Made by a program: the position numbers and the translations under genes. The notes under the pieces were generated by a model. That model was not told the DNA's origin, ran no database searches, and was given only the letters and a program-made list of their open reading frames with translations. DNA of 64,000 nucleotides from Haloplanus salinus (GTDB taxonomy: Archaea > Halobacteriota > Halobacteria > Halobacteriales > Haloferacaceae). Positions 1 through 6,959 of this stretch are shown piece by piece. The stretch spans positions 1,364,001 to 1,428,000 of the forward strand of contig NZ_QPHM01000001.1 in NCBI RefSeq assembly GCF_003336245.1. Reading direction: 5' to 3'. Position 1 is the stretch's first letter. The number at the start of each line of letters is the position of its first letter.

Positions 1-321
1 CACGCCGCCGACGCGGAGAACGTGGCGTCGGCGTGGTTCACCGGGACGGGAACGGTCACGGACGCCGACCTGTGGCACTACGATCCGGAGCGCGGTGACC
101 ACCGCGCCGCCGGGTTCGACGAGTCGCTGACGGTCGCCGTCTGTGTCGGCGGGGTCGGGGCGGACGCGGACGGGGCGTTCGCCCGCCCCTACGCCGTCCT
201 CACTCGCCCGAGCGGGCAAGCCGTCGGCGGCTACCTCAACGCCGCGACGGCCGTCGAGGGGACGGTCCACCTCCGAGCTTTCGAGGACCCGGTGATCGAT
301 CGCCAGACGGACGCCCCATGA
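1..321 (+). CDS. PPC (DUF296) domain protein, C-terminal part
   Basis: The reading frame is open from base 1, so this is the 3' end of a gene that starts before the window; 106 residues are visible. The sequence resembles the PPC domain (plants and prokaryotes conserved, DUF296), a small trimeric fold found in AT-hook proteins and stand-alone archaeal proteins. The visible parts are the AWFTGTGTV strand, a VAVCVGGV core strand and the closing VHLRAFEDP strand. Its TGA overlaps the ATG of polC by four bases, so the two are probably co-transcribed, and I recall a DUF296 gene next to polC in other haloarchaea. The molecular function is not known. An internal GTG at base 22 is not the real start. 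Confidence 0.75.
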   Translation, partial: HAADAENVASAWFTGTGTVTDADLWHYDPERGDHRAAGFDESLTVAVCVGGVGADADGAFARPYAVLTRPSGQAVGGYLNAATAVEGTVHLRAFEDPVIDRQTDAP

Positions 322-3300
322 CGCCCGACGACGAACGCTACTTCGAGCGGATGGAAGAGCGGTTGGACGAGGCGTTCGACCGCGCGGAGCGGGCACGGAA
401 CCGTGGCGCCGACCCGACCACCGAGGTGGAGATTCCGGTCGCCCGCGACATGGCCGACCGGGTGGAGAACATCCTCGGCATCGACGGCGTGGCGGAGCGG
501 GTGCGCGAACTCGACGGGCGGATGAGCCGCGAGGAGGCGGCGCTGGCGCTCGTCACCGACTTCGTCGAGGGGACGGTCGGCGACTACGACACCGACGCCG
601 GCAAGATCGAAGGGGCGGTCCGGACCGCCGTCGCCCTCCTGACCGAAGGGGTCGTCGCCGCGCCCATCGAGGGCATCGACCGCGTCGAGGTGCTCCCGAA
701 CGACGACGGGACCGAGTTCGTCAACGTCTACTACGCCGGCCCGATCCGCTCGGCGGGCGGGACGGCACAGGCGCTCTCGGTGCTCGTCGCCGACTACGCC
801 CGCTCGCTGCTCGGCATCGACGAGTTCAAACCCCGGGACGACGAGGTGGAGCGCTACGCCGAGGAGGTGGGGCTCTACGACAAGGAGACGGGGCTCCAGT
901 ACACGCCGAAAGACAAGGAGACGAAGTTCATCGCCGAGCATATGCCGATCATGCTGGACGGCGAGGCGACTGGCGACGAGGAGGTGTCAGGGTTCCGGGA
1001 TCTGGAACGCGTCGACACCAACGCGGCCCGCGGCGGGATGTGTCTCGTCCTCGCGGAGGGCATCGCGCTGAAGGCGCCGAAGATCCAGCGGTACACCCGC
1101 GACTTGGAGGAGGTGTCGTGGCCGTGGCTACAGGACCTCATCGACGGCGCCATCGGCGGGGACGAGGCGGCCGACGACGCCGGGGACGACGACGCGGAAG
1201 GCGGCGACGACGCCGAGGACGACGACGCCGAACCGGCCGGGCCGCCCCGCGTCGACCCCTCGACGAAGTTCCTGCGCGACCTGATCGCCGGGCGGCCGGT
1301 GTTCGGTCACCCGTCCGAAGCGGGGGGCTTTCGCCTCCGTTATGGCCGCGCACGCAACCACGGCTTCGCCACCGCGGGCGTCCACCCTGCGACGATGCAC
1401 CTCGTCGACGACTTTCTCGCGACGGGCACGCAGATCAAGACCGAACGACCGGGGAAGGCTGCGGGCGTCGTCCCCGTCGACACCATCGAAGGGCCGACGG
1501 TCCGGCTGGCCAACGGCGAGGTCCGGCGCATCGACGACCCGGCGGAGGCGCTGGCGGTCCGCAACGGCGTCGAGGAGATACTCGACCTCGGCGAGTATCT
1601 CGTCAACTACGGCGAGTTCGTCGAGAACAACCACCCTCTCGCGCCCGCCTCGTACACGGTCGAGTGGTGGGTGAAGGAGTTCGAGGGGAGCGACGCGGAC
1701 GTACAGGCGCTGCGGGACGACCCGCGGGTCGACCTCGACGAACCGACTCCCGACGAGGCGCTCCGCTGGGCGATCGAGTTCGACTGCCCGCTCCACCCGG
1801 CGTACACCTACCTCTGGCACGACGTGAGCGTCGCGGCGGTCGACGAACTCGCGGCCGCCGTCGCGGACGGCGACGTGGTCGCACTGGAGAGCGACGGGGG
1901 CGTCGGGCGAACGACGGCCGGGCGGATCGAAGCGGGCGCCGACGCCCTCCTCGTCGAGGCGAGTGGCGACGTGCGTCGGACGCTCGAAACGCTCCTCGTC
2001 GAACACGTCGCCACGGACGAGGTGCTCCGAGTCACGGACTGGCGACCGCTCGCCCGGTCGCTGGGCGTGACGGCCGATCTGGACCGCGAGTGGACGCTCG
2101 ACGACCTCTCGCCGGCCGCCCGCGAGTACGACGGCGGCGACAACGCCATCCGCGCCGTGAACCAGGTGGCGCCCTTCACCGTCCGGGAGCGCGCCCCGAC
2201 CCGCATCGGCAACCGGATGGGTCGCCCGGAGAAGTCGGAGGGGCGCGACCTCTCGCCCGCGGTCCACACCCTCTCTCCCATCGGCGAGGCCGGTGGGAGT
2301 CAGCGCGACGTGGGCGGCGCGGCCCGCGCCCGTACCGACGAGGGGCGGGGCGTCGTGAACGTACAGGTGGGCCGCCGGGCGTGCCCCGACTGTGGCGCGA
2401 CCACCCACCGCACGCAGTGTCCAGGCTGTGACGCCCACACGGAGCCGGTGTACGAGTGCGAGTCCTGCGAGCAGGTGATCGAACCCGACGAGTCCGGGCG
2501 CGTCCACTGTGACCGCTGTGACCGGGACGTGACCAGCGCCGAGTGGCGCCGACTCGACGTCGGCGAGCGGTATCGGGAAGCCCTCGACACTGTCGGCGAG
2601 CGCGAGGCGGCGTTCGAGATTCTGAAGGGCGTGAAGGGACTCACCTCCGCGAACAAGACGCCCGAGCCGATGGAGAAAGGCGTCCTCCGCGCGAAACACG
2701 GCGTCAGCTCGTTCAAGGACGGCACCGTCCGCTACGATATGACGGACCTGCCGGTGACGGCGGTCCGTCCCGAGGAACTCGACGTGACCGCCGCCGATTT
2801 CCGCGAACTCGGCTACGAGACCGACGTCGACGGCGACCCGCTCCGCTTCGACGACCAACTGGTCGAGTTGAAGGTCCAGGATATCGTCCTCTCGGACGGC
2901 GCGGCGGAACACCTGCTCAAGACGGCCGACTTCGTCGACGACCTGTTGACGGAGTTCTACGACCTGCCCCCCTTCTACGAGGTGGAAGAGCGCCAGGACC
3001 TGGTGGGCGAACTCGTCTTCGGGATGGCGCCGCACACCTCGGCGGCCGTGGTCGGTCGGGTGGTCGGGTTCACGTCGGCGGCGGTGGGGTACGCGCATCC
3101 GTACTTCCACGCGGCGAAGCGGCGGAACTGCTTCCACCCGGAGACGAAGGTGTGGTATCGGGACGAGGACGGCGCGTGGCACCACGAGCGGATCGAGCGG
3201 CTGGTCGAGGAGCGGCTCGAGGACCCCGAAACGGACGACTTCGGCACGCTCGTCCAGGAACTCGACGGCGATGTACACGTGCCGAGCATCGACGACGACG

Positions 3301-6300
3301 GCGAGCAGGTGCTGAAGCCGGTCGAGGCGGTGTCGAAACACCGGGCGCCGGATCATCTGGTCGAAATCGAGACGCGGAGTGGGCGGGCGGTTACGGTGAC
3401 GCCGGATCACGAGGTGCAGGTGTTCGATGGGGGAGAGGTCGAATCGAAACGAGCGTCAAAGGTAGCGGACGATGACCAGCTAATCAAACCCTCACATCTC
3501 GATACTGTGTCACCAGCAGACGAGCCACAGCGTATCGATTTGCTCGCGGAGTTGCTACGGAGGGATATCATCGATGGCGACCGCCTGACTATCAGAGGAA
3601 TAGCGAAAAGCGAACTCTACGATCTATTCACCGAGTCGTTGAGCCACAGATGGGAGGGGACGTTCTATCCACTGAAAAGCACCGCCGAGTACCTCGGACT
3701 ATCGAAAAAAGCACTAAGTAACTACGTCTATCGAGAGAGCGTTCCTGTTCAACTGCTTGACCGACTGTTCGATTCTACCGACGCGCTCCTATCGGCCGTC
3801 CCGGACGACGTGAAACTCGGGGTCAAACGAGACCGAGCGCAGATGGATCGATTCGTCAAACTGAACGAACGAGTTGCGACACTCCTGGGATACTACGCTG
3901 CGGAAGGGTTCGCTCGCGCACAGGAGACACCCAAAGGAACGATCCACCAGACGACGGTCTGTGGAACCGAAACCGAGGCCCGAGAGTTCTTCATCGAGAC
4001 GTTTCGATCCGAGTTCGGTGTCGAGCCGTACCGTGAAAACGAGGCGAGGGTGACCGTTTCGGGACGACTACTCCGTGCGTTCTTCGATACAATCCTGAAT
4101 GCGGGTGTATATGCGGAAAGCAAGCGTGTCCCTCAACACATATTCGATTCGTCGAACCGAATTGCTGCAGCGTATCTACGCGGATACTTTAGCGGCGACG
4201 GGTCGGTTGACTCAACGGGAACAACCGTTTCGGCGTCGACGGTCAGCAACGAACTCAAAGAAGATATCGTCGCACTCCTGACCAGATTCGGTATCGAAGC
4301 ACGGATCAGGCATGTCGAGCCGGTATTGCTCCAAGACCAGTTTCCGGAGCACTACAGTGATAACGACATGGCCATGTCAAAACCGGCGTACGTCGTTCAC
4401 CTTGCTGGAGAACGTAGCGTCCGATTCTCGGAGCAGATCGGATTCCACCTCTCACGGAAAGACGAAGTGCTTCGTCAAAATGTCGCCGAGCGTAGTAGTA
4501 AGGAGGAATACGCGCGCTGTTTCGACGGTGGAAACGACCAATATTTGATCGATCCTGTCGAATCAACGAGTATCAGTACGTCTAACGTCGATTCAGTATA
4601 CTGTCTTACCGTTGCAGATACCCATACACTGATTACGAACGATCTGTCAAATTGTCAATGTGACGGTGACGAAGATTGCGTCATGCTCCTCATGGACGGG
4701 CTGCTCAACTTCAGCCAGGAGTATTTGCCCGACCAGCGAGGCGGGAGCGTCGCCGCCGATTCGCGGCTCGTCACCGTCTCACCCGAGGGCGAAGTCCGCT
4801 TCCTGACCGTCGAGTCGTTCTGGAACGAACTCGATAGCGAAATCGTACGCGACAGGAAGTTCCGCAAGAAGCCGTGTCTCTCGGAGGGGTGGCAGACGTA
4901 CGTCTTCGACGACGATCACCGGGCGTCGCTCGCGCCAATCGAGAAGGCGATCCGATATCCGGCCGAGGAGGACGAAACGCTACTTCGCGTCGAGACACAG
5001 TTCGGCCGGTCACTGGACATCACCGCGGATCACAGCCTCTTCCGTTACGACGACGGAATCAACGAGGTCGCCGGCGAGGACCTAGAGGAGGGAGATCTCG
5101 TCCTCGCACCGCGCCAACTCGACATCGACCCAGTCGAGACAACGGTCGACGTCGTCGAGGCGGTCGACGACCCGTACGTCTTCATCGACGACCACGTCGA
5201 GGACCTGCTCCGAACCGTCTGGGAGTCGACGGCGCACGGGAGCGACGCCCACGACGAGTTCATGCGGGGGCTCTCGTACCGTCTCGCCAAGCGCAAGATC
5301 GGTTACGACCGGTTCGAACGTATCCTCGACGCGGGCGGCTTCGAGGACGTCCCGGCCGACGTGACGATCGGATTACCGGGATCCGAGACCGGAATCGACC
5401 GCAAGATCCCGATCGACGAGGAGTTCGCCTGGTTGCTCGGCCTGTTCGTCGCCGAGGGAACGCTGTCGAGTACGTATCCGGCGATCCACAACGGCGACGA
5501 GGATATCGTCGAACGAGCGCGTTCGCACGTCGAGTCGGCGCTCGGCCACGATCCCTCGGTCAGGTGGTCGAACCGCGCGTACGAGATCCGACTGCCGACG
5601 GTCTTCCGGGACGTGCTGTACGACCTCGGATTCGTCGACGCCGAGTCGTACGACTCCAGCCAGAAGGTGATCCCTGAATCCATCCTCCGGGCACCGCGCG
5701 AGGTCGCCCTCGCGTTCCTACGGGGGTTCATCGCCGGCGACGGAAGCGAGAAGACGGACGACAACGCGACGATTATCGCCTTCCACTCGACCAGTGAGGA
5801 CGTCAAGGACGGAATAGTCTTTCTGTTGCATCGGCTCGGCCTCGTCGCCAACGTCTCGACCAAGACGGAACGGGCGGGGAACAGGCAGGACATCTACACG
5901 GTGACGGTGTCCGGTGGCGCGACCGACAACCCGCTACGCAGGATTCTCGACGGCGAAGAGCCGTATCAGCCGAAGAGCCTCGTCGTCCCGATTCCGGACT
6001 CCCTGATGGAGATACGCGAGATGGACATCGAGGGGGTCAAGCAACTGATTCCGAAGTATCTCCGACGACGCGAGAACGTGTCGCTGGAGAAACTGCGGGA
6101 GATGGTCACGTCTCTGGAGAATCGGGAACTGCCGGACGCCGCGGAGACACGACTCGACGACCTGCGACCGCTCGTCGACGGCGACCTCTCCTACCTCCGA
6201 ATCAAGCGAATCGAGGAGGTCGATTACGAGGGTCGTCTCTACGACCTCCAAGTCGGCGGTGAACCCATCTTCACCGCGAACTGGCTGTACGCGCACAACT

Positions 6301-6959
6301 CGATGGACGCCCCTCTCGTCATGTCCTCGCGCATCGACCCGACCGAAATCGACGACGAGGCCCACAACATGGACGTGGTTCGGGAGTACCCCCTCGAATT
6401 TTACGAGGCGACCCGCGAGATGGCGGACCCCGAGTCGGTCGACGTCGAAATCGCGGAGGACTCGCTCGGGGCGGAGACGGAGTACCACGGCTTCGATCAC
6501 ACCCACGACACCTCGAACATCGCGCTCGGGCCGGACCTCTCGGCGTACAAGACGCTGGGGTCGATGATGGACAAGATGGACGCCCAGTTGAATCTGGCCC
6601 GGAAACTCCGCGCGGTCGACGAGACGGACGTGGCCGAGCGGGTCATCGAGTACCACTTCCTCCCGGACCTGATCGGCAACCTGCGGGCCTTCTCGCGCCA
6701 GGAGACGCGATGTCTGGACTGCGGCGAGTCGTACCGGCGGATGCCCCTCTCGGGCGACTGTCGGGAGTGTGGCGGGCGCGTGAACCTGACCGTCCACGAG
6801 GGGTCGGTGAACAAGTACATGGACACCGCAATCACGGTGGCCGAGGAGTTCGACTGCCGGCCGTACACGAAACAGCGTCTCGAAGTGCTCCAGAAGAGCC
6901 TGGAGAGCGTCTTCCAAGACGACCACAACAAGCCGTCGCGGCTGGACGACTTCATGTAG
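318..6959 (+). CDS. polC: DNA polymerase D large subunit DP2 with two inteins
   Basis: This is the catalytic subunit of archaeal replicative polymerase D. The precursor is 2213 residues; removing two inteins (938-1447 and 1477-1994) leaves about 1185 residues, a normal DP2 length. Visible marks are the N-terminal DP2 domain, an acidic Asp/Ala/Gly-rich insert near residues 280-310, a Cys-rich zinc region at about 692-735, the catalytic CDGDEDCVMLL segment that supplies the metal-binding aspartates, the MDAPLVMSSRIDP segment after intein 2, and a C-terminal zinc ribbon (CLDC...CREC) at about 2133-2153. The partner subunit DP1 is encoded at 59804 in the same window. The start ATG overlaps the stop of the upstream gene. 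A functional polymerase needs both protein-splicing reactions. Confidence 0.97.
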   Translation: MTPDDERYFERMEERLDEAFDRAERARNRGADPTTEVEIPVARDMADRVENILGIDGVAERVRELDGRMSREEAALALVTDFVEGTVGDYDTDAGKIEGAVRTAVALLTEGVVAAPIEGIDRVEVLPNDDGTEFVNVYYAGPIRSAGGTAQALSVLVADYARSLLGIDEFKPRDDEVERYAEEVGLYDKETGLQYTPKDKETKFIAEHMPIMLDGEATGDEEVSGFRDLERVDTNAARGGMCLVLAEGIALKAPKIQRYTRDLEEVSWPWLQDLIDGAIGGDEAADDAGDDDAEGGDDAEDDDAEPAGPPRVDPSTKFLRDLIAGRPVFGHPSEAGGFRLRYGRARNHGFATAGVHPATMHLVDDFLATGTQIKTERPGKAAGVVPVDTIEGPTVRLANGEVRRIDDPAEALAVRNGVEEILDLGEYLVNYGEFVENNHPLAPASYTVEWWVKEFEGSDADVQALRDDPRVDLDEPTPDEALRWAIEFDCPLHPAYTYLWHDVSVAAVDELAAAVADGDVVALESDGGVGRTTAGRIEAGADALLVEASGDVRRTLETLLVEHVATDEVLRVTDWRPLARSLGVTADLDREWTLDDLSPAAREYDGGDNAIRAVNQVAPFTVRERAPTRIGNRMGRPEKSEGRDLSPAVHTLSPIGEAGGSQRDVGGAARARTDEGRGVVNVQVGRRACPDCGATTHRTQCPGCDAHTEPVYECESCEQVIEPDESGRVHCDRCDRDVTSAEWRRLDVGERYREALDTVGEREAAFEILKGVKGLTSANKTPEPMEKGVLRAKHGVSSFKDGTVRYDMTDLPVTAVRPEELDVTAADFRELGYETDVDGDPLRFDDQLVELKVQDIVLSDGAAEHLLKTADFVDDLLTEFYDLPPFYEVEERQDLVGELVFGMAPHTSAAVVGRVVGFTSAAVGYAHPYFHAAKRRNCFHPETKVWYRDEDGAWHHERIERLVEERLEDPETDDFGTLVQELDGDVHVPSIDDDGEQVLKPVEAVSKHRAPDHLVEIETRSGRAVTVTPDHEVQVFDGGEVESKRASKVADDDQLIKPSHLDTVSPADEPQRIDLLAELLRRDIIDGDRLTIRGIAKSELYDLFTESLSHRWEGTFYPLKSTAEYLGLSKKALSNYVYRESVPVQLLDRLFDSTDALLSAVPDDVKLGVKRDRAQMDRFVKLNERVATLLGYYAAEGFARAQETPKGTIHQTTVCGTETEAREFFIETFRSEFGVEPYRENEARVTVSGRLLRAFFDTILNAGVYAESKRVPQHIFDSSNRIAAAYLRGYFSGDGSVDSTGTTVSASTVSNELKEDIVALLTRFGIEARIRHVEPVLLQDQFPEHYSDNDMAMSKPAYVVHLAGERSVRFSEQIGFHLSRKDEVLRQNVAERSSKEEYARCFDGGNDQYLIDPVESTSISTSNVDSVYCLTVADTHTLITNDLSNCQCDGDEDCVMLLMDGLLNFSQEYLPDQRGGSVAADSRLVTVSPEGEVRFLTVESFWNELDSEIVRDRKFRKKPCLSEGWQTYVFDDDHRASLAPIEKAIRYPAEEDETLLRVETQFGRSLDITADHSLFRYDDGINEVAGEDLEEGDLVLAPRQLDIDPVETTVDVVEAVDDPYVFIDDHVEDLLRTVWESTAHGSDAHDEFMRGLSYRLAKRKIGYDRFERILDAGGFEDVPADVTIGLPGSETGIDRKIPIDEEFAWLLGLFVAEGTLSSTYPAIHNGDEDIVERARSHVESALGHDPSVRWSNRAYEIRLPTVFRDVLYDLGFVDAESYDSSQKVIPESILRAPREVALAFLRGFIAGDGSEKTDDNATIIAFHSTSEDVKDGIVFLLHRLGLVANVSTKTERAGNRQDIYTVTVSGGATDNPLRRILDGEEPYQPKSLVVPIPDSLMEIREMDIEGVKQLIPKYLRRRENVSLEKLREMVTSLENRELPDAAETRLDDLRPLVDGDLSYLRIKRIEEVDYEGRLYDLQVGGEPIFTANWLYAHNSMDAPLVMSSRIDPTEIDDEAHNMDVVREYPLEFYEATREMADPESVDVEIAEDSLGAETEYHGFDHTHDTSNIALGPDLSAYKTLGSMMDKMDAQLNLARKLRAVDETDVAERVIEYHFLPDLIGNLRAFSRQETRCLDCGESYRRMPLSGDCRECGGRVNLTVHEGSVNKYMDTAITVAEEFDCRPYTKQRLEVLQKSLESVFQDDHNKPSRLDDFM
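3129..4658 (+). mobile_element. Intein 1 of polC (LAGLIDADG type, C-terminal Gln)
   Basis: The insertion is 510 codons between AKRRN and CDGDEDC, directly before the polymerase catalytic aspartates. It starts with Cys1 (CFHPETKV, block A), has a block B TPDH, two LAGLIDADG motifs (LLGYYAAEGFA near residue 1189; YLRGYFSGDGS near 1285) with their acidic residues kept, and a block F (VYCLTVADTHTLI). It ends in SNCQ followed by extein Cys. Restoring the conserved AKRRN-CDGDED junction requires Gln, not Asn, as the last intein residue. Glutamine-ended inteins are known at this PolII site in Pyrococcus abyssi. From about 3430 to 4660 the GC content falls visibly (29 of 60 bases in 3481-3540), unlike the first 300 bases and the rest of the gene. 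Confidence 0.93.
4746..6299 (+). mobile_element. Intein 2 of polC (LAGLIDADG type, Ser1)
   Basis: The insertion is 518 codons between LPDQRGG and SMDAPLVMSS, only 29 extein residues after intein 1. It begins with Ser1 (SVAADSRLVTV), carries a block B with TADH, two LAGLIDADG motifs (LLGLFVAEGTL near residue 1706; FLRGFIAGDGS near 1799) with intact acidic residues, and ends with the standard YAHN followed by Ser+1. Splicing residues and endonuclease motifs look complete, so it is probably active in splicing and possibly in homing. Base composition is close to the host gene, in contrast to intein 1, which suggests longer residence in this genome. Confidence 0.93.

Follow-up and report, generated by a model that had tools for sequence, protein, structure and literature searches.

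The closest described systems are the halobacterial pol-IIa (DP2-a) inteins, 75 members of which were included in the survey of Soucy et al. (2014; PMC4071816). They share one insertion site in DP2, the large subunit of DNA polymerase D (PolD), begin with Cys1 and end in Gln without a penultimate His, and the long forms carry a LAGLIDADG endonuclease. According to the P. abyssi crystal paper, D956 and D958 lie in the PolD catalytic loop, where the intein insertion site is found in several species. The PolII mini-inteins of Pyrococcus abyssi and P. horikoshii (PDB 2LCJ, 5BKH, 7OEC) occupy this site with Cys1, Cys+1, a C-terminal Gln and the Hint fold. However, they keep the penultimate His, have no endonuclease and have Ser at position F:4. 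The PolII intein of Methanoculleus marisnigri, compared here by description, also ends in Gln, and both it and that of P. abyssi splice with Gln, whose cyclization is slow and is improved by Asn (PMC4031507). The same review puts the absence of the penultimate His at about 5% of functional inteins. Another haloarchaeal case, also compared by description, is an intein of Halobacterium salinarum, for which a passage of PMC10663303 describes splicing that depends on high salt.

Here, we analyse an intein at the same site in a window of 64,000 nucleotides from Haloplanus salinus. The features of the window that are needed below are as follows.

318–6959, + strand: polC/DP2, DNA polymerase D large subunit (PolC_DP2_N, central and cat domains; PRK14714, 2134 bits)
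3114–3128, + strand: AKRRN, the final five codons of the N-extein
3129–4658, + strand: DP2-a (pol-IIa) intein, 510 aa, from Cys1 to Ser-Asn-Cys-Gln
3129–3131, + strand: Cys1, step 1 nucleophile, block A (Cys in 153/153 complete Halobacteriales relatives)
3399–3410, + strand: block B, TPDH, with Thr91 and His94 (TPDH in 130/153 relatives)
3519–4520, + strand: homing-endonuclease region, intein residues 131–464, bounds approximate (LAGLIDADG_3; structure model and I-DmoI/PI-PkoII matches; dN/dS 0.16 to G002)
3882–3908, + strand: LAGLIDADG-type motif 1, LLGYYAAEG, acidic residue retained
4176–4202, + strand: LAGLIDADG-type motif 2, LRGYFSGDG, acidic residue retained
4596–4625, + strand: block F, VYCLTVADTH, with Cys492 (F:4) and the block F His499
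4653–4655, + strand: Cys509, penultimate residue, codon TGT; His in most inteins
4656–4658, + strand: Gln510, terminal residue, codon CAA; putative cyclizing residue of step 3 (Gln in 154/154 relatives)
4659–4676, + strand: C-extein CDGDED, that is, Cys+1 and then the PolD catalytic-loop aspartates (D956/D958 of P. abyssi DP2)
4746–6299, + strand: DP2-b (pol-IIb), the second intein of the DP2 gene, 518 aa, from Ser1 to His-Asn and followed by Ser; canonical C-terminus

The DP2 gene is a single uninterrupted frame of 2213 aa with both inteins inside. The coordinates that an earlier note, made from the letters alone, had given to the DP2-a intein proved exact to the base by translation and flanking extein, since the translated insert runs from CFHPETK to DLSNCQ, with AAKRRN before it and CDGDED after it. 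The intein thus sits between AKRRN and CDGDED in the PolD catalytic loop, as that note had placed it. Its reading of the end as ...SNCQ before Cys+1 also stands, and so does its precedent, the P. abyssi PolII intein with a C-terminal Gln. From the location of the two inteins, it is a sound expectation that the polymerase would be inactive until both are excised; the note had said this of the precursor, leaving out the second intein of the same reading frame.

That the insert is an intein is beyond doubt. The Pfam families Intein_splicing and LAGLIDADG_3 and the NCBIfam family intein_Nterm all exceed their cut-offs, and phmmer matches it to PI-PkoII (2cw7, E=9e-21) and to the P. abyssi PolII intein (2lcj, E=1e-8). 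An AlphaFold model (pLDDT 92, pTM 0.90) has PI-PkoII as its best match in the PDB (E=1e-31), and the P. abyssi and P. horikoshii PolII inteins and I-DmoI are matched as well. PI-PkoII (2CW7) is the best structural match to the whole model, Hint plus LAGLIDADG, but it shares only 19% identity with the window intein and resides in another host gene. The Hint fold is accordingly seen in the Pfam, model and PDB comparisons alike.

The intein has the features of class 1, namely Cys1, the block B Thr and His, Cys+1 at 4659 and the Hint fold. The penultimate His and terminal Asn that are usual, though not obligatory, in this class are replaced by Cys-Gln, which does not exclude class 1, because the review (PMC4031507) counts functional inteins that deviate at these two places. 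A class 3 intein was considered and rejected, since Cys1 is present, G:5 is Asn508 and there is no Trp two places past the block B His. The insertion between RRN and CDGDED of DP2 is that of the pol-IIa allele, and the intein falls inside a haloarchaeal group of 154 rows (SH-aLRT 97). Gln directly before the +1 nucleophile places it among the inteins with a C-terminal Gln, and the two motifs with acidic residues, together with LAGLIDADG_3, mark the LAGLIDADG homing endonuclease shared with the long-form halobacterial pol-IIa inteins. Cys residues are found at positions 1, 278, 464, 492 and 509.

How unusual is the Cys-Gln end? The earlier note had suggested comparing the junction in other haloarchaeal PolC inteins, and this was done for 154 distinct Halobacteriales inteins at the DP2-a site, 153 of which are complete and aligned for internal positions. 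Every one of them has Gln last, and a penultimate His is found in 0/154, so the framing of the missing His as a peculiarity of this intein is not borne out. The penultimate residue is Lys in 53, Gly in 53, Ala in 21, Asp in 8, Ser in 6, Arg in 6, Asn in 3, Cys in 2, Leu in 1 and Glu in 1. Most halobacterial pol-IIa inteins thus have Lys, Gly or Ala where the window intein has Cys. The rarity of Cys beside Gln, also pointed out in that note, is real. Only the window intein and that of one sister species (G002, locus L015) have it among the 154, and at the DNA level Cys-Gln directly before CDGDED occurs in the window genome alone among 392 genomes of the order, a draw that excluded G002. His-Gln before CDGDED occurs in none of these 392 genomes. 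The window and G002 have identical end codons (TCA AAT TGT CAA), and a sequencing error at the Cys509 codon was therefore rejected, G002 having been sequenced independently.

In the tree of 191 splicing domains, Cys-Gln has a single origin inside the Lys-Gln group. The penultimate residue is unstable (41 changes over 17 two-residue end classes), and the terminal Gln is constant throughout the haloarchaeal group. Judging from these sequences, Cys509 is rare and the lack of the penultimate His is the rule at the haloarchaeal DP2-a site. The window intein is thus best described as a fresh member of the known pol-IIa family, its Cys being one of the residues that a freely variable position may take. 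As for the internal positions, F:4 is Cys in 126/153 relatives and the block F His is present in 127/153. It is replaced in the other 26 (Asn 25, Arg 1), and in these inteins, among them those of L035, L036, L144, L146, L147, L152, L160 and L170, all the usual step 3 residues are gone.

At 40 further Halobacteriota loci, those inteins of the DP2-a site that end in Gln have Gly, Ala or Phe as the penultimate residue and, in one case (L242), His. Many of the relatives outside the order are mini-inteins of 165 aa with a Gly-Gln end. Two other intein types, ending in Asn (after Ser, Ala or Gly) or in Asp, are also found at these 40 loci, and the textbook His-Asn end at none of them. For example, L232–L241, from other Halobacteriota lineages, include "CL" types that end in Asn and others that end in Asp (TID, TVD).

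The window genome itself provides a comparison, with the DP2-b intein as internal control for the DP2-a C-terminus. The ten other recognised inteins of this genome, including DP2-b, all end in His-Asn, in a census by family search and by a C-terminal junction motif search in its loci that may miss odd ends. Therefore, the departure belongs to the site and not to the genome. This genome is intein-rich, with 21 matches to the Pfam intein splicing domain and at least eleven inteins, and three inteins share one reading frame of about 2071 aa (C1:1625–1630 kb). At the DP2-b site (window 4737–4748 and 6300–6302), the +1 place is Arg, Gln or Lys in 95/96 intein-free alleles and the nucleophile Ser in 9/9 intein-bearing alleles seen (L015 and L019–L023 among the loci); going by these alleles, the presence of DP2-b goes hand in hand with a change in the codon beside it.

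PolD is essential in Halobacterium NRC-1 (PMC7776575), and the same review cites, in a passage on H. volcanii, unpublished work to the same effect. The intein must consequently come out of DP2. The residues for steps 1, 2 and 4 are all present in the intact Hint fold, and the comparisons above argue strongly that this is a splicing-competent class 1 homing intein of the pol-IIa family, which would rely on Gln cyclization without a penultimate His. Cys1 would form the thioester (step 1), the N-extein would be transferred to Cys+1 (step 2), Gln510 would cyclize to a glutarimide, helped mainly by the block F His499 instead of a penultimate His (step 3, probably slow), and an S-N shift would regenerate RRN-CDGDED (step 4). 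Cys509 is probably a recent, tolerated replacement of Lys, in a place that has no fixed part in catalysis here. As Lys, Gly, Ala, Asp, Ser and others occupy the same place, it most likely has no required role. What speaks against this reading is that the solved Gln-ended relatives, the P. abyssi and P. horikoshii PolII inteins, retain the penultimate His. We know of no tested intein with the exact Cys-Gln end.

With Gln fixed, the penultimate His gone in 154/154 and the block F His gone in 26/153, it is also conceivable, though rather unlikely, that the inteins of the PolD catalytic loop as a group have shifted step 3 so that neither helper His is needed, cleavage perhaps being aided by a thiol, for example that of Cys509, or by neighbouring acidic residues of the extein (Asp+2 and Asp+4). 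If so, the aid of polymerase active-site residues or of a thiol would couple splicing to the folding of the polymerase or to the redox state. The latter has a counterpart in the proposal that Cys509, a fourth thiol beside Cys1, Cys492 and Cys+1, forms a disulfide that holds the precursor until it meets a reducing cell or high salt. By analogy a regulatory disulfide through Cys509 is possible, since one between Cys1 and Cys+1 restrains splicing of the P. abyssi PolII intein in vitro, and gel mobility points to the same in P. horikoshii PolII. The salt-dependent intein of H. salinarum is reportedly a PolII intein too, with an active-site disulfide in its precursor. Its salt dependence is reported in the passage noted above (Reitter et al. 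2016, cited in PMC10663303). However, the known switch operates in relatives that lack Cys509 and needs just Cys1 and Cys+1, and Cys509 is confined to two species of one lineage, so that we consider a holding role for Cys509 improbable.

The earlier note had also offered cleavage after Ser-Asn, with the intein ending at Asn508 and Cys509 acting as the +1 nucleophile. Taken alone, Asn508-Cys509 resembles a standard junction of Asn and Cys and is chemically imaginable, but with the product RRN-CQ-CDGDED an essential polymerase would have two extra residues in its catalytic loop. Moreover, Asn at the 508 place is limited to 3/154 inteins, which are closely related to one another, and the closest relative among these (L010) reads SNKQ, with Lys where the nucleophile is needed. 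Every aligned Halobacteriales relative has a spacing of 11 positions between the block F residue and its last residue, which an end at Asn508 would cut to 9. The intein-free alleles (L011, L012, L038 and L076–L079), same-genus genomes among them, carry AKRRNCDGDED, the sequence that splicing should produce. This cleavage is therefore very improbable. Finally, the replacement of both usual step 3 residues could be taken as decay, the loss of His and then the change of Lys to Cys being steps to failure. Such decay is scarcely credible given the dN/dS of 0.06–0.16 across the splicing and endonuclease parts, the frame kept open through an essential gene and the recent spread between species described below; a pseudo-intein was rejected on the dN/dS and the open frame.

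The single Cys509 carries little weight, and the pattern of the whole site is more useful. By its sequences, the haloarchaeal pol-IIa family as a whole has lost the penultimate His and fixed Gln. The textbook His-Asn is absent at one site of an essential enzyme in all members examined of an order, and inteins inserted elsewhere in the same cell retain it. Before the invariant Gln, nature offers a series of His, Lys, Gly, Ala, Asp and Cys, with the block F His present or absent. The series lends itself to experiments on the true requirements of step 3, and on whether selection favours slow cyclization of Gln or just tolerates it.

The dN/dS to G002 is 0.06 for the splicing part and 0.16 for the endonuclease part, and that to G001 is 0.14–0.15, with 0.15 for the splicing part; both parts are under purifying selection. 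Between the window and G002, 19/252 fourfold sites (8%) differ in the intein and 72/421 (17–19%) in the exteins (Fisher p=4e-4). The lower divergence in the intein indicates that the Cys-Gln intein, in whole or in part, probably moved between species after the split of these two, and a functional intein that was transferred recently should show just this pattern. Within the genus, the DP2-a site is polymorphic, being empty in 4/12 genomes and holding mini-inteins of 179–181 aa in two more (together G003, G004, G006, G007, G009 and G011; loci L013, L074 and L076–L079). The composition of the window intein is a patchwork as well: GC3 is about 0.93 in the first 60 codons, which is host-like, and 0.38 in the last 34–40. 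The first 60 aa are 93–95% identical to those of several inteins of the same genus (the mini-intein of G003 and the long inteins of G008 and G010), to which the remainder is far less similar. Such a pattern suggests that resident and incoming alleles of the intein have recombined.
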